Shown: piece after piece, positions 20,751 to 29,102 of the stretch | Layout of the letters: every line of letters begins with the position of its first letter | Numbering within the stretch: position 1 is the first letter of the stretch | Origin: Alphaproteobacteria bacterium | GTDB lineage: Bacteria; Pseudomonadota; Alphaproteobacteria; Ferrovibrionales; Ferrovibrionaceae | Assembly: GCA_026126215.1 (NCBI GenBank) | Contig: JAHCJQ010000006.1 | Coordinates: 1 to 64,000 of the forward strand | Direction of reading: 5' to 3' | Length of the DNA stretch: 64,000 nucleotides | Program-made: the position numbers and the translations under genes | The notes under the pieces: generated by a model | The model's database searches: none | Told to the model about the DNA's origin: nothing | Seen by the model: only the letters and a program-made list of their open reading frames with translations

Positions 20751-21269
20751 ATGGCCGACATCACCGCCGATCAAGCGGACGCACAGGCGGCTGCCGAAGG
20801 GACGGTCCGCAAACACAGGATCTCCGGCAAGGTGCTGGTGCTGTTCATCGTGCTGCCACTGCTTCTGGTGGGCGGCCTTGGCGCGGCCGGCGCTGGCTAC
20901 TTCCTTGGCTGGTTCGGCTCTGGCGATGAGGCGGCCGAAGCGGCCAAGCCGGTGGCGCCGCGCGCCGTGGTCTTTCACGATCTTCCCGAGATGCTCGTCA
21001 ACCTGCAGAGCACGGGCCGCCAGGCAAGCTATCTCAAGATCCGCGTCTCCCTCGAGCTCGACGATGCGGAGGCAGTGAAGCGCGTCGATCAGGTGATGCC
21101 GCGCGTTCTTGACAATTTCCAGGTCTATCTGCGCGAACTCCGTCCCGATGAGCTGCATGGCTCCGCCGGCGTGCAGCGCCTGAAGGAGGAACTTCTGATC
21201 CGCGTCAACGCCGCCGTGGCGCCGGCGCGGGTCAACGACGTGCTGTTCAAGGAAATGCTGCTGCAATAG
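20751..21269 (+). CDS. fliL: flagellar basal body-associated protein FliL
   Basis: 172-residue single-pass inner-membrane protein that sits at the stator/MS-ring region. Cytoplasmic N-terminal tail of about 23 residues, TM helix VLVLFIVLPLLLVGGLGAAGAGYFLGWF, then the periplasmic FliL domain with VVFHDLPEMLVNLQSTGRQASYLKIRVSLEL and the C-terminal LKEELLIRVNAAVAPARVNDVLFKEMLLQ. An in-frame ATG at 20706 is the alternative start. First gene of fliL-fliM-DUF6468-motE, with 14 bp to fliM. Confidence 0.95.
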   Translation: MADITADQADAQAAAEGTVRKHRISGKVLVLFIVLPLLLVGGLGAAGAGYFLGWFGSGDEAAEAAKPVAPRAVVFHDLPEMLVNLQSTGRQASYLKIRVSLELDDAEAVKRVDQVMPRVLDNFQVYLRELRPDELHGSAGVQRLKEELLIRVNAAVAPARVNDVLFKEMLLQ

Positions 21270-21283
21270 ACGGACAAGGCCAG

Positions 21284-22405
21284 ATGGCTGACGAGAGCGA
21301 AAGCGGTATCGACGAAGAGAAGCTCGCCGCCGAATGGGCCGCGGCCGCCGAGGCGGATCAGCCGGACATGGAGGCGGAGGCGGCTCGAGCGGCGGACGAG
21401 AATGGCCAGCCGGGACCTGCCGTCGGCGGCGGCCAGGCCACGCGCGTCCTGAACCAGGACGAGATCGACAGCCTGCTCGGATTCGACAGTTCCGATGACG
21501 AGGATCGCGAGAGATCGGGTATCCGCGCGATCATCAACAGCGCCCTCGTCTCCTACGAACGCCTGCCCATGCTCGAGGTGGTCTTCGACCGCCTGGTGCG
21601 CCTGATGACCACGTCGCTGCGCAATTTCACTTCCGACAACGTGGAAGTCTCGCTCGACCAGATCACCTCGATCCGTTTCGGCGATTACCTGAACTCGATC
21701 CCGCTGCCCGCCATCCTTTCGGTGTTCCGGGCGCAGGAATGGGACAATTACGGGCTGATCACGGTGGACAGCTCGCTCATCTACTCGATCGTGGATGTCC
21801 TGCTGGGTGGCCGGCGCGGTACCGCCGCCATGCGCATCGAGGGCCGGCCGTATACCACGATCGAGCGGAACCTTGTCGAGCGCATGATCAGCGTCGTGTT
21901 GAACGACCTCAGTCAGGCTTTCGAGCCGCTTTCACCGGTCAATTTCGTCTATGACCGGATCGAGACCAATCCGCGCTTCGCAACCATCGCCCGTCCGGCC
22001 AATGCGGCGATCCTCGCCAAGTTCAGAATCGACATGGAGGATCGCGGCGGCAGGTTGGAACTGATGCTGCCATACGCGACGCTCGAACCCGTGCGCGAAC
22101 TCCTGCTGCAGATGTTCATGGGCGAGAAGTTCGGTCGCGACAGCATTTGGGAGAACCACCTGGCGACCGAGTTGTGGTCGACCGACATCGACATACAGGC
22201 CGTGCTCGACGAACAGTTGATGACCTTGCGCGAGGTCATGAACCTGGAGGTCGGGGCCACCATCATGCTCAACGCAACGCCCGATACGCCGGTCGAACTG
22301 CGCTGCGGCGGCATTCCGCTGCTGCGCGGCAGGATGGGTCGCATCGGACCGCAGATCGCGGTCCGGGTCGACCGTTCGCTCCGCCCCATGAGGCCAAACC
22401 CATGA
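21284..22405 (+). CDS. fliM: flagellar motor switch protein FliM
   Basis: 373-residue C-ring protein that binds phosphorylated CheY and sets rotation direction. The CheY-binding motif LNQDEIDSLLGFD is at about 57-68, preceded by an unusual acidic/alanine-rich extension containing DEEKLAAEWAAAAEAD. The middle domain (LPMLEVVFDRLVRLMTTSLRNFT through TTIERNLVERMISVVLNDL) and C-terminal SpoA domain (VLDEQLMTLREVMNLEVGATIML, then VELRCGGIPLLRGRMGRIG) are complete. FliN and FliG are not in the window. The stop overlaps the next start (ATGA). Confidence 0.96.
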   Translation: MADESESGIDEEKLAAEWAAAAEADQPDMEAEAARAADENGQPGPAVGGGQATRVLNQDEIDSLLGFDSSDDEDRERSGIRAIINSALVSYERLPMLEVVFDRLVRLMTTSLRNFTSDNVEVSLDQITSIRFGDYLNSIPLPAILSVFRAQEWDNYGLITVDSSLIYSIVDVLLGGRRGTAAMRIEGRPYTTIERNLVERMISVVLNDLSQAFEPLSPVNFVYDRIETNPRFATIARPANAAILAKFRIDMEDRGGRLELMLPYATLEPVRELLLQMFMGEKFGRDSIWENHLATELWSTDIDIQAVLDEQLMTLREVMNLEVGATIMLNATPDTPVELRCGGIPLLRGRMGRIGPQIAVRVDRSLRPMRPNP

Positions 22406-22845
22406 CCCTGGCACTTCTCCTCGATATCCTGTTGATCGGCCTGCTGGTCGCGACGCTCGGCTTCTGCATACGCCTCAATGGCCGGCTGCAGGCGGTGCGC
22501 GGCGCGAACCAGGAATTGCGCCAGCTCGTCACGTCCTTCGATACCGCGACGGAAAAGGCGCGTGCGGGCGTCGCTGAACTGAAGGTCGCGAGTGAAGCAG
22601 CCGGGCGCGACCTCAAGGACCGGATCGAGAAGGCACGGGCGCTGGCCGACGAACTCGCCATCATTACCGAATCGGGCAACCGGCTTGCCGACCGCCTGGA
22701 GCATGGTCTGACCAGCCGCCGGACCGGCGCACGCCGCCAGGGCGCGAGCGCCAGCGATGAGGATCCGGCCGAGGAAGAGGGCGAACCGGCGCCGCGGATG
22801 AAGGCCGAACGCGACCTTCTCCAGGCGCTCAGGCGCGTGAAGTGA
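22402..22845 (+). CDS. DUF6468 flagellar-cluster membrane protein
   Basis: 147 residues: an N-terminal TM helix (TLALLLDILLIGLLVATLGFCIRLN), then a coiled-coil (about 40-110) with regular heptads including VTSFDTATEKARAGVAELK, and a charged disordered tail. This fits the DUF6468 family found between fliM and motE in alphaproteobacteria. Translationally coupled to fliM by an ATGA overlap. The role is unknown; its place suggests a motor or stator accessory in the inner membrane. Confidence 0.75.
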   Translation: MTLALLLDILLIGLLVATLGFCIRLNGRLQAVRGANQELRQLVTSFDTATEKARAGVAELKVASEAAGRDLKDRIEKARALADELAIITESGNRLADRLEHGLTSRRTGARRQGASASDEDPAEEEGEPAPRMKAERDLLQALRRVK

Positions 22846-22852
22846 GGTCCCG

Positions 22853-23740
22853 ATGAGCTATCTCAACGCGCTGGCCACCCGGCTCCGCCTGCGCCGGCCG
22901 AGGCTGCTGCCCGTGCTGGTAGCGGCGATCACTCTTGCCGCCGGCATGAAGGTCGGCACGGTCTGGACCGATGCCACGTTGATGCTGGGTTTCCAGCGCG
23001 CCGATGCGCAGGCGCAAACCGGCCGCGCGCAACCGGGTCCGGCTCCGGCCGGCAACGGGGCGCCCCGGCCGCTGCTGCCCAAGGGCGCGGAGGCGCCGCG
23101 CCCGCCGATGCCCGACGCTCCGCCGCCGGCCCGGCCGCAAGCGCCGGTCCAGCAGCAAGCGCCGGTCCAGCAGCAATCGCCGGTCCTGGCCCAGGCCGAG
23201 CCGACGGCTTCCGCCAGGCCGCAGGAGGGGGCGGGCGCCAATCCGTCACCGCCGGTGCCGCCGCAATCGGCGATGCGAGATCCGTCCAGCTACTCGAAGT
23301 CCGAGGTCGAGATCCTCCAGAGCCTTTCGCAGCGGCGCGAGGAACTGGAGGCGAAGGCGCGCGATATCGAGTTCCGCGAACAGCTTCTCGGTGCCACGGC
23401 AAAACAGGTCGACGAGAAGATCGCCGCGCTCAAGGAGATCGAACGCCGGATCGAGGACCTGCTGAAAAAGCGCGACGAGGAAGAGGAGCGCAACCTGCGC
23501 AGCCTGGTCAAGGTCTACGAGAACATGAAGCCGGTCGATGCAGCGCGCATCTTCGAGCAGCTCGAGATGGCAATTCTGCTCGACGTGGTGGAACGCATGC
23601 GCGAGGCCAAGGTCGCGCCGATCCTCGCGCAGATGAATCCGGGCAAGGCAAAGAAAGTTACGGAGGAACTTGCCGCACGGCGGGCATTGCCCTCGCGCAT
23701 GCCCGCGGAGAGTGGCCAGGATTCCGCGCGACGGGGCTGA
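22853..23740 (+). CDS. motE: MotE-like flagellar motor protein (MgtE_N domain)
   Basis: 295 residues. An N-terminal TM/signal anchor (LLPVLVAAITLAAGMKVG) is followed by a long Pro/Ala/Gln-rich linker (about 50-145) with a short tandem repeat, a coiled-coil (150-225, IEFREQLLGATAKQVDEKIAALKEIERRIEDLLKKR-type heptads) and a C-terminal MgtE_N-like domain (YENMKPVDAARIFEQLEMAILLDVVERM, ILAQMNPGKAKKVTEELA). This is the MotE architecture; in rhizobia MotE is the periplasmic chaperone of the stator component MotC. Follows the DUF6468 gene by 7 bp. Confidence 0.82.
   Translation: MSYLNALATRLRLRRPRLLPVLVAAITLAAGMKVGTVWTDATLMLGFQRADAQAQTGRAQPGPAPAGNGAPRPLLPKGAEAPRPPMPDAPPPARPQAPVQQQAPVQQQSPVLAQAEPTASARPQEGAGANPSPPVPPQSAMRDPSSYSKSEVEILQSLSQRREELEAKARDIEFREQLLGATAKQVDEKIAALKEIERRIEDLLKKRDEEEERNLRSLVKVYENMKPVDAARIFEQLEMAILLDVVERMREAKVAPILAQMNPGKAKKVTEELAARRALPSRMPAESGQDSARRG
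23138..23191 (+). repeat. three 18-bp tandem repeats inside motE
   Basis: Unit CAAGCGCCGGTCCAGCAG twice without change, then a degraded third copy. It encodes QAPVQQ repeats in the proline-rich linker; repeat-number change would lengthen the linker without a frameshift. Confidence 0.8.
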
Positions 23741-23855: not shown

Positions 23856-24242
23856 ATGTCGGTCGACAAGTCGATGCCGATCCTGATCGTCGATGATTAC
23901 AAGACGATGCTGCGCATCATCTCCAACCTTCTGAAGCAGCTAGGGTTCAGCAACATCGACGAAGCGACCGATGGCGGCGCGGCACTCGGCAAGCTGCGGG
24001 AGAGGAGCTACGGTCTGGTGATCTCGGACTGGAACATGGAACCGATGACCGGGCTGCAGCTTCTGAAGGAGGTGCGGGCCGACGAACGTCTTAAAGGTCT
24101 GCCGTTCATCATGATTACCGCCGAGAGCAAGACCGAGAACGTCATCGCTGCCAAGCAGGCCGGGGTGAACAACTATATCGTCAAGCCGTTCAACGCCGAG
24201 ACGCTCAAGAAGAAGATGTCGTCGGTGCTGGGCGAGTTCTGA
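23856..24242 (+). CDS. cheY: CheY-type single-domain response regulator
   Basis: 128-residue receiver. Acidic pocket Asp13-Asp14, phospho-acceptor Asp58 (VISDWNMEPMTG), Thr88 and Lys110 (IVKPF) are all present; the sequence around helix 4 (ESKTENVIAAKQAGVNNYIVKPFNAETLKKKM) is of the chemotaxis CheY type. It presumably binds the FliM N-terminal motif to change motor rotation. Start ATG after AAGGAG. The neighbouring cheZ dephosphorylates it. No CheA or receptor gene is in the window, so its kinase is elsewhere. Confidence 0.95.
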   Translation: MSVDKSMPILIVDDYKTMLRIISNLLKQLGFSNIDEATDGGAALGKLRERSYGLVISDWNMEPMTGLQLLKEVRADERLKGLPFIMITAESKTENVIAAKQAGVNNYIVKPFNAETLKKKMSSVLGEF

Positions 24243-24278: not shown

Positions 24279-24926
24279 ATGCCAGTAACGAACCTGGCCG
24301 CTTCCGGACTGGACCGCCGCATCGCCGAGTTGCGCGCCGTGCGCGGCGGGAGCGTGCGGCTGGAGGAGGTGGGCGAGCTCGTCGAGAGCATGATCGGCAG
24401 CCTGCAAGGCGACTTGTCGCCGGGCGAGATCATCGTCCAGAGGGAACTGGGCGAGCTGGTGGACTATATACGGCAGGCCCATGCGGAGATCGCCTCCATC
24501 CATCCCGCTGAAATCGGCTCGGTGCACATCCCCGCCGCGACCGACGAGCTGGATGCGGTGGTGAGCGCCACCGCCGAGGCCACCAACGCCATCCTCGATG
24601 CTGCCGAACAGCTCAACCGCATGGCGGAAAGCCTGCCCGCGAAGCATGCGGAGGCGCTGGCGGAAATTACGACGCGCATCTACGAGGCGTCAAATTTCCA
24701 GGACATCACAGGTCAGCGCATCACCAAGGTGGTGCGGACCTTGCGCCATATCGAGGACAGGGTTCTTGCCCTGGCGCACAGTTTTGGCGAGGCGGCATCG
24801 GTGCCTGTCGATACCTCAAGTGGCTCTGCCCGGGACGACGAGGCGTCCTTGCTCAACGGTCCGCAGCTTCCAGGCCGGGCCAACAGCCAGGCGGACATCG
24901 ATGCGCTGCTGGAAAGCTTTGACTGA
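24279..24926 (+). CDS. cheZ: CheY-P phosphatase CheZ
   Basis: 215-residue helical protein. The CheZ active-site region is visible as YEASNFQDITGQRITKVVRTLRHIE, with the catalytic Gln in FQDITGQR. The C-terminus ends in QADIDALLESFD, the tethered CheY-binding peptide typical of CheZ and similar to FliM's LNQDEIDSLLGFD, so the same CheY face is recognised by both. Cytoplasmic. It lies between cheY and the motB-like pair, 3 bp from the next start. Confidence 0.92.
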   Translation: MPVTNLAASGLDRRIAELRAVRGGSVRLEEVGELVESMIGSLQGDLSPGEIIVQRELGELVDYIRQAHAEIASIHPAEIGSVHIPAATDELDAVVSATAEATNAILDAAEQLNRMAESLPAKHAEALAEITTRIYEASNFQDITGQRITKVVRTLRHIEDRVLALAHSFGEAASVPVDTSSGSARDDEASLLNGPQLPGRANSQADIDALLESFD

Positions 24927-24929
24927 GAG

Positions 24930-25547
24930 ATGACGCGCGCGGGACCACAATCCCGGATCGAAACACGCGATCCGAGCGTGATGGTCTTCATGTCGCTGTA
25001 TCTGATCCTGCTCACGTTCTTCATCGTCCTGGCGGCCCTCTCGCGCGTCGAAAACCGGCGGCTCGAGCAGGCGCTCATCGGGGTCGAGCATTCCTTTGGC
25101 GGTGCCGGCGGGCGGAGCCGGGTCAGCGTCATCGAGCCGCTCGATCCGTCGGCGCTTCCCGGAAGCGACGTAGCGGCACTGCTGAGCGAGGAACTGGCCG
25201 CCCTTGCCGTCCTGCCGTTCGCGTCGCTCTCGGCCGAGCGGGGCGAGGTCCGGCTCGCGATGCCGGCACGGCTCTTCTTCCCGCCCTCGGGCAGCGAACT
25301 GACCGGTCTGGGCAAGCGGGTTCTCCATAGCCTTGCCAAAGTCGCCGCGCGCGTGGAGGAGCCGTTACGGCTCGGCATTCTCCTGGTCCGCCCGGCAAGT
25401 TTCTGGGGTCTCGGACCGTTGCCGCTCGATCGTGCCGCAGCACTGCGCGCGGCCTTGCACGAGGCGATCGCGGGCGCGGACATCGGCATCGTGGATGCAG
25501 GCGGCGGCGACATCGTTTTCCGCTTCCGCATCGTTCAGGAGGAGTAG
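24930..25547 (+). CDS. degenerate MotB-like protein lacking the proton-binding Asp
   Basis: 205 residues: a single N-terminal TM helix (VMVFMSLYLILLTFFIVLAAL), then a periplasmic domain with the OmpA/MotB outline (ARLFFPPSGSELTGLGKRVLHSLAKVAARV; LDRAAALRAALHEAI; DIVFRFRI). Aligning the TM on its FF pair with MotB puts Ser22 where MotB has the essential aspartate, and the peptidoglycan-binding TD..G motif is absent. It immediately precedes a MotB that keeps the Asp. It may form a heterodimer with it or be a structural stator subunit; a non-motor OmpA-like protein is possible. Start 3 bp after the cheZ stop. Confidence 0.7.
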   Translation: MTRAGPQSRIETRDPSVMVFMSLYLILLTFFIVLAALSRVENRRLEQALIGVEHSFGGAGGRSRVSVIEPLDPSALPGSDVAALLSEELAALAVLPFASLSAERGEVRLAMPARLFFPPSGSELTGLGKRVLHSLAKVAARVEEPLRLGILLVRPASFWGLGPLPLDRAAALRAALHEAIAGADIGIVDAGGGDIVFRFRIVQEE

Positions 25548-25552
25548 CGGAA

Positions 25553-26212
25553 TTGATCCGCCTGTCTTTTGCATCGGGATCGGGCACGCCGCTCTGGCTG
25601 GTGACGCTGGCCGATCTGCTGGCGCTGCTGCTTGCCTTCTTCGTCCTGCTCTTCGCCATGTCCAACCTGGAGGCGCCGGCCTGGCGCGCGATCAGCCAGT
25701 CACTCGGCACCGCGTTCAATCCGGCGGCCTTGATCGGAGCTGGTCGGGCGAGGCAGGACGTGCCTGGCCGCGCCATGGCTCCGGCGACCGACCCTGGATA
25801 TCTGGCGACGGTCATCGCCGGCAAGCTCGCCAGCGATCCGGCGCTTGCCGGAGCGCGGACCGATCTGCGTGCCGATCATCTGGCGATCACGCTGCCGCCC
25901 GGCATTTTCTTCGCGCGCGGCGCGGCGGAAATGACCGAGCCGGCGCGCCGTGCCGCCGTTTCCCTCGCGACGACCCTCGCCTCCCTCGGTAACCGGATCG
26001 AGATTTATGGCGCGACCGATCTCCCCGCGATCGGGGAGGAGCGCGATGCCGCGTCGTGGATTCTGTCACTTCGGCGCGCCCATGCGTTGGCCGGGGCGCT
26101 CGCCGAGGCCGGTTATCCGGGGCCGGTCCCGGCCTTCGCTGCCGGAAGGACCAGTGCCGATATCGAAATCGTCATCGCGCTCGAACACCGGAGCGACCCG
26201 CATGCGCCCTGA
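25553..26212 (+). CDS. motB: MotB-like stator protein
   Basis: 219 residues. TM helix LVTLADLLALLLAFFVLLFAMS contains Asp21 at the position of the proton-carrying MotB aspartate, 8 residues before the FF pair. A linker of about 50 residues leads to an OmpA-C-like peptidoglycan-binding domain (LPPGIFFARGAAEMTEPARRAA; IEIYGATD; LSLRRAHALAGALAEAGY). The domain is less conserved than in canonical MotB. MotA is not in the window. The start lies 5 bp after the upstream MotB-like gene; the 3' end overlaps the TPR gene by 11 bases. Confidence 0.8.
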   Translation: MIRLSFASGSGTPLWLVTLADLLALLLAFFVLLFAMSNLEAPAWRAISQSLGTAFNPAALIGAGRARQDVPGRAMAPATDPGYLATVIAGKLASDPALAGARTDLRADHLAITLPPGIFFARGAAEMTEPARRAAVSLATTLASLGNRIEIYGATDLPAIGEERDAASWILSLRRAHALAGALAEAGYPGPVPAFAAGRTSADIEIVIALEHRSDPHAP

Positions 26213-29102
26213 TTTCCTCGCCATCCCGACACTCTGCCTCGCTCTCTTGCTGCCCTCGGGCATGGCCGGGGCGCAGGCGCCGCAAGTGCGCGCGGGCGAA
26301 CATGCCGGCTACAGCCGTCTGGTCGTCGAGTGGCCGGGCGCGTTCAGCTATGAAGCGAAGGTGGAGGGCGGGCGCGCGCGCATCGTGCTCGATCGCGGTT
26401 CGGAATTCGATCTCGCGGCGGCGGCGGGAACCCTGCCAAGCCGGCTGCGAGCGGCACGTGCGACGATGGAAGACGGCAGGCTGGTCATTGAAGTCGAAGC
26501 GGTCCCGGGCGCCGGGCTCAAAGTGGCGCGCTGGGGCAACCGGCTGGTGATCGACGCGGCGGCCGCCGCGCAAGCCAAGCCCGCGCGGGCCGAGTCCAGG
26601 CCGGCGCCGAAAGCGGCGACGCCGGCCGCGCCGCCGCCGCCGGCCGGACCGGAACGACGGGCGCCACAACCTGCTTCCACTCCGCCCCAGGTGCGGGATG
26701 CGCTGCCCGCTGCCACGCCTCCGGCGGCAAAAACTGTCGCGGAGCCACGACCGGAGGCGGCGCAGCCGCAACTCGCGCTTGCACTCGAAGCCGAAAAGCG
26801 TCCGGACGGCGCCCGCCTCGTCTTTCGCAGCCCGACCCCGCGGGCGGCGCTGGTGCTGCATCGCGCCGGCACGCTCTGGGTCGTGCTCGATGGCGCGCCG
26901 GCGCGCCTCGACCTCGCGGGTCTCGTTCCGGCGCTGGGAGAGGCCGCCGGCCGGGCGGAGCAGATCTCCCATGAGGCAGCGACGATCCTGCGCCTGCCGC
27001 TCAGGCCCGGCCTGTTGCCGGTTGCGCGCCGCGCCGGCAATGATTGGGTCGTCGAACTCCGGCCCTCGGCCGATGGTGCGCTGGCCCGTCCGGTCGAGGT
27101 GCGGGCCGAACGCGATGGCACCGGTGGACGCCTTCTCGTGGCGTTGGTCGAGGCGGGCGAACCGCTCGCCCTGACCGACCCGGATGTGGGGGACCGGCTG
27201 GTCCTGGTGCCCAGCGCCGCGTCCGGTCTCGGCATGAACCTGCCGCGCCAGTATCCGCAGCTCACCATGTTGCAGAGCGCGCAGGGGCTTGCGATCCAGG
27301 TGAAGAGCGATCATCTCGCGGTGACGCGCGCCGGTTCGCAGGTGGCGATCCATGCGGAGGGCGGTGTGCTGGCGGCGGCGCTGGGTGCGGCCGACGTCAA
27401 GCCGAGCGGCGGGCTGCTTCGCTTTGGCGACTGGGCCGGGCCGCGCGATGGCTTCGTCCGGCGCGAGCAGGAGCTGCTGGCAGCGCTCGCGGCGGCCCCT
27501 GTCGCGCGCCAGCCCTCGGCGCGCCTCGATCTGGCGCGCTTCTATCTGGCCAATGGCATGGCGCAGGAGGCGGTCGGCGTGCTCGGTCGGCTGAGCCGTT
27601 CCGACCCGGCCATGTTCGAGGAGCGCGGAAACCGGCTGCTGCGTGGCGCGGCGCTGGTCGCGGCGCGCCGGCCCGGCGAGGCGGAAGCCGACCTCACCCA
27701 CCCGACGCTGGCGGAAGATGGCGAGGGCGCGCTCTGGCGCGGGCGGATGTATCTGTTGCAGGAGCGCAATGGCGAGGCGCGGGCCGAGTTCATCAGGGCC
27801 GGCGACAGCTTCGTCCGCTATGGCGAGCCATTGCGCAGCCGCATGCTGACGGAGATGGCCGAGGCCTATCTCCAGGCGGGCGACAAGGAGAGCGCCGCCG
27901 CGGTTCTCGCCGTATTCGACAAGGCGGCGGCGCCGGAGACAATGGCCAGCCGGATCAGTTATCTCAAGGGTCGCTTTCATGAGCGCCACGACGATCCCGC
28001 TTCGGCGATCCTGGCCTATGAAATGGCGGAGGCAGGCGGCGAGCGGCTGACGCGTGCCCGCGCCCTGCTGGCGCGCACCGCATTGCAGGTGCGTGGTGGC
28101 AAGATCGAGAAGCAGGAGGCGATCGAGCGCCTGGAGGGACTGCGCTATGCCTGGCGTGGCGACAGGGTGGAACTCGAGACCTTGCGGCGCCTGGGCGATC
28201 TCTACCTGGCGACAGGCGACTACCGGTCCGCGCTCGCCACCATGCGACAGGCGATCACGCTCTTCCCCCGCTCGGCAGAGGCGAAGGAGCTGGCCTCGGC
28301 CATGGGCCGGGCCTTCGAGCACCTGTTCCTGGACGGGCTGGCCGACCATATGCCGCCCGTCGAAGCTCTCGGCCTCTTCTTCGACTATCGAGAACTGGCC
28401 CCGGTCGGCGCGCGCGGCGACGAGATGATCGGGCGGCTGGCCGGTCGGCTGGTGGCGCTCGACCTGCTCGACCGGGCGGGCGAACTGCTGGAGCATCAGG
28501 TCGGCTCCCGCCTAACCGGCACGCCGAAGGCGCTGGCCGCCATCGATCTCGCGGCCATCCGCCTGCTGGACGGCAAGCCCGAAAAGGCGCTCGCCGCCCT
28601 GCGCCACGCGGCCAGCGGACTGCCCGAGGCGCGGATGCCGGAACGGCGCCTGCTCGAGGCACGGGCGCTGATCGCGCTCGACCGGCCGGCCGAGGCACTT
28701 GCGGCGATTGCCCAGGAAACCGGCGAGCAGGCGCTTGGCCTGCGCGCGCAGATTCACTGGAGGGGGCAGAATTGGCCCGGCGCGGCCGAGGCACTCGGCG
28801 CATTGCTGCGACGGGGCGGCGGACCTGGCGAAAAGCTCGATGCCGCTGCCCGGCAGCGGGCGTTGCAGCTCGCGGTGGCGCTCGCTTATGCCGGAGACGG
28901 CGCCGGCATCGACCGGCTGCGTGCCGAGTTCTCCGCCCGCTTCGAGGGCAGCGCCGAGGCGCCAGCCTTCCGGGTGCTGACGAACCGGGTCAACCGTAAC
29001 GAGACGGAGTTCCGGGAGCTTGCCCGCAGCATTGCGGGGCTGGGCCAGCTCGATGCCTTCATGAGCGAGTACCGCGACAGGCTGCGCAAGAGCGCATCCT
29101 GA
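26202..29102 (+). CDS. exported TPR protein of the motor operon
   Basis: 966 residues. Signal peptide (MRPDFLAIPTLCLALLLPSGMAGAQA); a beta-rich AMIN-like N-terminal region (GYSRLVVEWPGAFSYEAKVEGGRARIVLDR); a Pro/Ala-rich linker around 125-190; a second domain of similar type to about 480; then a long alpha-helical TPR solenoid to the end (for instance YLANGMAQEAVGVLGRLSRSD and YLATGDYRSALATMRQAITLFP). Periplasmic. The overlap with motB implies coupled synthesis. By place and export it could be a MotC-like stator partner, with MotE as a possible chaperone; no sequence identity to MotC is claimed. Upstream in-frame codons are ruled out because they lie inside motB. Confidence 0.75.
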   Translation: MRPDFLAIPTLCLALLLPSGMAGAQAPQVRAGEHAGYSRLVVEWPGAFSYEAKVEGGRARIVLDRGSEFDLAAAAGTLPSRLRAARATMEDGRLVIEVEAVPGAGLKVARWGNRLVIDAAAAAQAKPARAESRPAPKAATPAAPPPPAGPERRAPQPASTPPQVRDALPAATPPAAKTVAEPRPEAAQPQLALALEAEKRPDGARLVFRSPTPRAALVLHRAGTLWVVLDGAPARLDLAGLVPALGEAAGRAEQISHEAATILRLPLRPGLLPVARRAGNDWVVELRPSADGALARPVEVRAERDGTGGRLLVALVEAGEPLALTDPDVGDRLVLVPSAASGLGMNLPRQYPQLTMLQSAQGLAIQVKSDHLAVTRAGSQVAIHAEGGVLAAALGAADVKPSGGLLRFGDWAGPRDGFVRREQELLAALAAAPVARQPSARLDLARFYLANGMAQEAVGVLGRLSRSDPAMFEERGNRLLRGAALVAARRPGEAEADLTHPTLAEDGEGALWRGRMYLLQERNGEARAEFIRAGDSFVRYGEPLRSRMLTEMAEAYLQAGDKESAAAVLAVFDKAAAPETMASRISYLKGRFHERHDDPASAILAYEMAEAGGERLTRARALLARTALQVRGGKIEKQEAIERLEGLRYAWRGDRVELETLRRLGDLYLATGDYRSALATMRQAITLFPRSAEAKELASAMGRAFEHLFLDGLADHMPPVEALGLFFDYRELAPVGARGDEMIGRLAGRLVALDLLDRAGELLEHQVGSRLTGTPKALAAIDLAAIRLLDGKPEKALAALRHAASGLPEARMPERRLLEARALIALDRPAEALAAIAQETGEQALGLRAQIHWRGQNWPGAAEALGALLRRGGGPGEKLDAAARQRALQLAVALAYAGDGAGIDRLRAEFSARFEGSAEAPAFRVLTNRVNRNETEFRELARSIAGLGQLDAFMSEYRDRLRKSAS

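Follow-up and report, generated by a model that had tools for sequence, protein, structure and literature searches.

Two adjacent genes in a flagellar cluster of an alphaproteobacterium of the family Ferrovibrionaceae encode MotB-like proteins, of which only the second, B2, carries an aspartate at the position of the ion-binding Asp32 of MotB, while the first, B1, carries a serine. The established form of the flagellar stator contains a MotB homodimer with two Asp residues. The pair and its asymmetry recur in about 50 families of Alphaproteobacteria together with an orphan MotA encoded elsewhere in the genome, and we consider it fairly probable that the three proteins form a stator in which a MotA pentamer surrounds a heterodimer of B1 and B2 that has only one ion-binding Asp.

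RESULTS

B1 and B2 are divergent MotB-like proteins encoded in tandem

The window analyzed here is a stretch of 64,000 nucleotides (contig JAHCJQ010000006.1 of assembly GCA_026126215.1). B1 and B2 lie in it within a block of flagellar and chemotaxis genes, as follows.

20751..21269, + strand: FliL, first gene in the conserved block
21284..22405, + strand: FliM, C-ring switch protein
22402..22845, + strand: DUF6468 protein (PF20072), in the same position as pflI of Cereibacter sphaeroides
22853..23740, + strand: MotE-like periplasmic protein (MgtE_N)
23856..24242, + strand: CheY-type response regulator
24279..24926, + strand: CheZ, directly upstream of B1
24930..25547, + strand: B1, Asp-less MotB paralogue, from ATG at 24930 to TAG at 25547 (205 aa)
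25553..26212, + strand: B2, Asp-bearing MotB, from TTG at 25553 to TGA at 26212 (219 aa)
26202..29102, + strand: MotK-like protein with an AMIN-like N terminus and TPR repeats; its first 11 bp overlap the end of B2

A sequence-only reading had described B1 and B2 as genes 5 bp apart whose products share one N-terminal transmembrane (TM) helix and an OmpA-like periplasmic domain. Re-reading of the DNA bore out the coordinates, strand, gene order and 5-bp gap, and the common layout is present in both proteins. The residue numbering was also correct, with Ser22 of B1 and Asp21 of B2 each followed 8 residues later by an FF pair. Ser22 stands at the MotB Asp position in the B1 TM helix, FMSLYLILLTFFIVLAALS, and Asp21, at the position of MotB Asp32, is contained in the B2 stretch LADLLALLLAFF. 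The ribosome-binding (Shine-Dalgarno) sequence of B2, AGGAGGAG, is located inside the end of B1.

By its sequence, B2 is a MotB. It matches the Pfam MotB_plug profile with 48.9 bits, above the cut-off of 24, and all 29 members of its family match that profile at E≤0.01. Its match to Pfam OmpA is weak (22.2 bits against a cut-off of 27.2), and its peptidoglycan-binding motif is worn, with ATD instead of HTD and the terminal RR missing; all 29 family members match Pfam OmpA at E≤0.01. The closest solved relatives of B2 are MotB and PomB, and Foldseek matches it with MotB periplasmic domains.

Taken alone, B1 is barely recognizable as a MotB, with 16.5 bits against MotB_plug (E 0.006), below the cut-off of 24. 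All 32 members of the B1 family alignment match this profile at E≤0.01, and several relatives exceed the cut-off, with scores of 31.8 and 30.8 bits for instance. The AlphaFold2 model of B1 (mean pLDDT 76.9) has a single long N-terminal helix (residues 15-56) followed by an OmpA-like domain, and the PDB entries that Foldseek ranks closest to it are periplasmic domains of the MotB type and others that are OmpA-like. The predicted fold of B1 is thus MotB-like, with a TM helix and an OmpA-like domain. B1 and B2 are only about 20% identical; HHalign nevertheless aligned the profiles of the two families over 191 columns with a probability of 98.9% and an E value of 1.8e-17. The helix is ungapped in this alignment and S22 is paired with D21, which answers the concern that Ser22 might be misplaced relative to the MotB Asp.

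The asymmetry is conserved across the Alphaproteobacteria

A profile search covered 387 alphaproteobacterial genomes, all 90% or more complete except that of the window, which was included at 84%, after which we retrieved the loci. B1-B2 pairs were present in 101 of the 387 genomes, from about 50 families, and lay nearly always among flagellar genes. In 101 non-redundant loci, B2 had Asp at the MotB Asp position in 99 of the 99 readable cases. The corresponding residue of B1 was Ser in 66 loci, Gly in 21, Ala in 11, Asn in 1 and Asp in 2, so that 99 of 101 B1 proteins had no Asp there. The profile alignment and the 101-locus survey rule out chance or misalignment as the origin of the asymmetry. 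A further 59 loci, partly overlapping the 101 and retrieved with a narrower B1 alignment from named genomes (Thalassospira, Rhodospira, Roseospira, Sneathiella, Kordiimonas, Oceanibaculum, Oceanibacterium, Minwuiaceae and MAGs), all had Ser, Ala or Gly in B1 and Asp in B2.

There are exceptions to the asymmetry: three B1 proteins carry Asp, two in the flagellar block (genomes G057 and G221) and one outside it (G133). Two trees disagree on the placement of these proteins and hence on the date of the Asp loss. The first tree nests two of them among Ser or Gly forms, with that of G133 basal, and the second leaves all three outside a clade of Asp-less B1 (SH-aLRT 95). The G133 pair (locus L077, contig C147, 1509-2943) has Asp in both proteins and lies outside any flagellar cluster, next to a cyclase-like ORF and ABC transporter genes; we looked for a MotA ortholog of the usual type in that genome and found none. 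In another genome, G281 (OX638326.1, loci L121 and L197), the genes for B1, B2, MotE and MotK are each broken over two frames in the one assembly, probably as a result of sequencing indels.

Conservation within B1 is highest in the helix, where the FF pair and several Leu residues are nearly invariant (F 99%, F 96%, L 97%) and a Ser stands at +16 in 80% of the sequences. The FF and Ser positions are common to B1 and B2, and this conservation is as expected for a helix inside MotA. The absence of the TD motif, which had been noted for the window copy, is real there and extends to the family, since B1 periplasmic domains lack the TD and N..LS peptidoglycan motif that B2 mostly retains. B1 is under purifying selection and evolves faster than B2 (dN/dS of 0.25 and 0.08, respectively, between the window genome and G001).

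Most loci have the order fliL-fliM-DUF6468-motE-cheY-cheZ-B1-B2-motK, with cheY and/or cheZ absent in some. The MotK assignment rests on position and on architecture (AMIN-like N terminus and TPR); the window protein is larger than C. sphaeroides MotK, at 966 aa versus 652 aa. In the C. sphaeroides Fla2 system, MotE and MotK are periplasmic, bind MotB2 and are both needed for rotation (PMC10954123). We also looked for relatives of B1 occurring alone without a motor. Wherever the contig extended far enough, B2 lay next to B1 or within a few kb of it, and a MotA ortholog was found in 98 of the 101 pair-bearing genomes, so this search did not refute the reading as paired subunits. In one locus (L331, G143:C2), B1 is with cheY-cheZ and B2-motK lies about 5 kb off on the opposite strand, both having been retained.

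An orphan MotA accompanies the pair

No MotA gene was found near the B1-B2 pair. The window genome has two stator sets, namely, an ordinary motA-motB pair (L001, G000:C205) and, going with B1-B2, an orphan PomA-type MotA (G000:C68; L004:1165-1956) in the order fliH-fliN-motA-flbD. In the loci examined, the orphan gene lay between fliN and flbD with no motB alongside. Orthologs of this MotA and the pair occurred together in 95 of the 387 genomes, with the pair only in 3, MotA only in 8 and neither in 281 (Fisher p 1.5e-76, a statistic that ignores shared ancestry). Three of the eight MotA-only genomes (G102, G275 and G400) turned out to hold divergent pairs, whose B1 has Ala where the helix is readable (G275 and G400), which brings the counts to 98 with both, 3 with the pair only and 5 with MotA only. 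One of these five (G229) has an ordinary MotA-MotB pair, and re-examination of the other four (G061, G390, G264 and G356) revealed no B1-B2 pair. In G390, G264 and G061, a close ortholog of the orphan MotA is present without the pair, through loss or an assembly gap.

In five genomes (G202, G277, G401, G274 and G079), B1 and B2 are the sole MotB_plug proteins, and the sole MotA_ExbB proteins are the orphan-type MotA and a TolQ encoded beside TolR. These are mostly drafts, 91-99% complete, with 6% contamination in G079, so the absence of other stators is unproven for any single genome, but the agreement among the five is strong. We left G098 and G092 off this list on account of weak extra MotA_ExbB hits. 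If the cells of these five swim, their motor is made of MotA, B1 and B2.

A similar asymmetry in a second class

A phylum-wide search for further cases revealed a motA-B1-B2-fliL-fliM operon in 18 loci of another class, mainly family f181 (L287-L298 and L301-L306). In this operon, the Asp position is filled by Glu or Gln in B1 and by Asp in B2. Orthology of this operon with the alphaproteobacterial pair is unsupported by the tree, which does not join the two kinds of B1, and we therefore treated it as an independent case. Judging from these sequences, the asymmetry apparently had two or more origins, in each case in the first gene. Two loci from other lineages of the phylum (L299 in G419 and L300 in G428) have a tandem motA-motB-motB with Asp in both motB genes.

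The genomes with no other stator, together with this motA-B1-B2 operon, make a stator role very likely. On the genomic evidence, the best explanation for the orphan PomA-type MotA is that it serves as the A subunit of the B1-B2 stator.

DISCUSSION

We propose that one flagellar stator has B1 and B2 as its two dedicated B subunits and the orphan MotA as its A subunit. The B1:B2 heterodimer would form the axle inside the MotA pentamer, with a 5:1:1 stoichiometry. The ion-binding Asp would be on B2 only, and the B1 helix, with its Ser, Gly or Ala, would occupy the remaining half of the pore as a permanently neutral protomer. In the 5:2 model as it now stands, the two sites act alternately, and one ion advances rotation by about a tenth of a turn (PMC9389320). 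In the proposed stator, one ion would be loaded per MotA subunit passed, giving about five per turn in 72-degree steps and not ten in 36-degree steps. Peptidoglycan anchoring would fall mostly to B2, aided by MotE and MotK. The asymmetry, its conservation, the gene order, the coincidence with MotA and the genomes lacking other stator genes can be read directly from sequence; the heterodimer, its stoichiometry, the single-ion steps and the shared anchoring are inferred from them. That the window organism also has an ordinary motA-motB pair counts against the heterodimer.

The main rival is that a B2 homodimer works with MotA and that B1 resides in a separate inactive or regulatory complex. This would be a B1 homodimer in MotA or a mixed complex, non-conducting and acting as a brake, a reserve or an assembly intermediate, and B1 would be regulatory and not an obligate half of the axle. 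B2 on its own has all the defining features of MotB, B1 is devoid of both the ion site and the peptidoglycan motif, and Asp-bearing B1 proteins exist, all of which fits such a division. However, B1 is kept with B2 in all the pair-bearing genomes, including small ones with a single stator set, a pattern not easily reconciled with a regulator that the cell could do without, and a heteromeric mixture would be expected unless dimerization were strictly selective. We regard this explanation as unlikely, but as one to be taken seriously.

It is rather improbable that B1 is a membrane-anchored periplasmic accessory similar to MotC, MotE, MotK or FliL, located outside the stator or on the motor and never in the MotA pore. 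The location of its gene among motE and motK and the loss of the peptidoglycan motif from its periplasmic domain would suit this role, but the best-conserved part of the protein is a TM helix in register with that of MotB, in which FF and Ser are kept, and in the other class B1 is encoded between motA and B2. That B1 is a decaying duplicate of B2 with no function of its own is hardly credible: it has lost the Asp and the motif and has evolved faster than B2, yet its frames are open in some 50 families with a dN/dS of 0.25 and a conserved helix, which rules out a pseudogene, and it was retained after the pair split in G143.

The heterodimeric stator that we favor resembles MotA5MotB2 and PomA5PomB2 in its MotA-family pentamer partner, the single TM helix with FF, the plug region, the OmpA-like domain and the flagellar context. 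It differs from them in having two B genes per MotA with Asp in one only and, in the Alphaproteobacteria, a motA far from the B1-B2 genes. One motA with two motB genes is already known from the motA-motB1-motB2 operon of Aquifex aeolicus (PMC4525482). There, the TM segments of the tandem motB products are 97% identical, with one Gly/Ser difference at residue 20, and either MotB1 or MotB2 alone is functional with MotA as an E. coli chimera (PMC4525482). In contrast, B1 and B2 do not share near-identical TM segments of this type, and B1 has no ion site.

Two MotB-like proteins with one MotA are likewise known, from the AglR-AglQ-AglS gliding motor of Myxococcus xanthus, in which a single MotA homologue is accompanied by two MotB-like proteins that differ from each other (PMC9389320). 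Whether AglQ and AglS form hetero- or homodimers is not known (PMC9389320). Unlike B1 and B2, both are predicted to bear Asp, and they belong to a gliding motor and not to a flagellar stator. The Fla2 MotA2/MotB2 system of C. sphaeroides has the same type of locus, fliL-pflI-motE-...-motK (PMC10954123), but its single motB2 is elsewhere and motA2 holds the slot between motE and motK that B1-B2 occupy here. Sinorhizobium meliloti MotC is also an extra motility protein, made together with MotB and stabilized by MotE, but it has been described as periplasmic and its gene is downstream of motB; B1, in contrast, spans the membrane and is a homologue of MotB, and its gene precedes that of B2.

The open-access papers searched contained no account of a conserved MotB partner lacking the Asp. 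A 2025 survey of MotAB inferred B subunits from their proximity to motA (PMC12505986), and such surveys can therefore miss B1-B2 sets. The Asp-bearing B1 proteins and the standing of the two-Asp homodimer as the established form also weigh against certainty about the heterodimer, and so do mutational data: neutralization of both copies of the aspartate (D32N, D24N) abolishes motility, as seen for D-to-N in E. coli and Borrelia, and D-to-E functions only weakly in these two and in Salmonella (PMC6663468). A search of the open-access literature found no data on single-site stators.

We are evenly divided on a broader statement, that a flagellar stator exists that is obligately hetero-B and is driven by one ion-binding Asp, its second protomer having been converted, at least twice independently, to a neutral (Ser, Gly or Ala) or altered (Glu or Gln) filler. 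If true, this would be a natural single-site 5:2 motor, predicted to use about 5 ions for each turn of MotA and to move in 72-degree steps. The need for both MotB aspartates and their alternation are questions at the heart of the 5:2 rotary model, which covers stators, ExbBD, TolQR and gliding motors. Our data suggest a motor unit that works with a single ion site where two are usual, and a natural one-site stator, kept across a bacterial class and the only stator found in some genomes, would make ions per turn, step size and torque open to direct testing.
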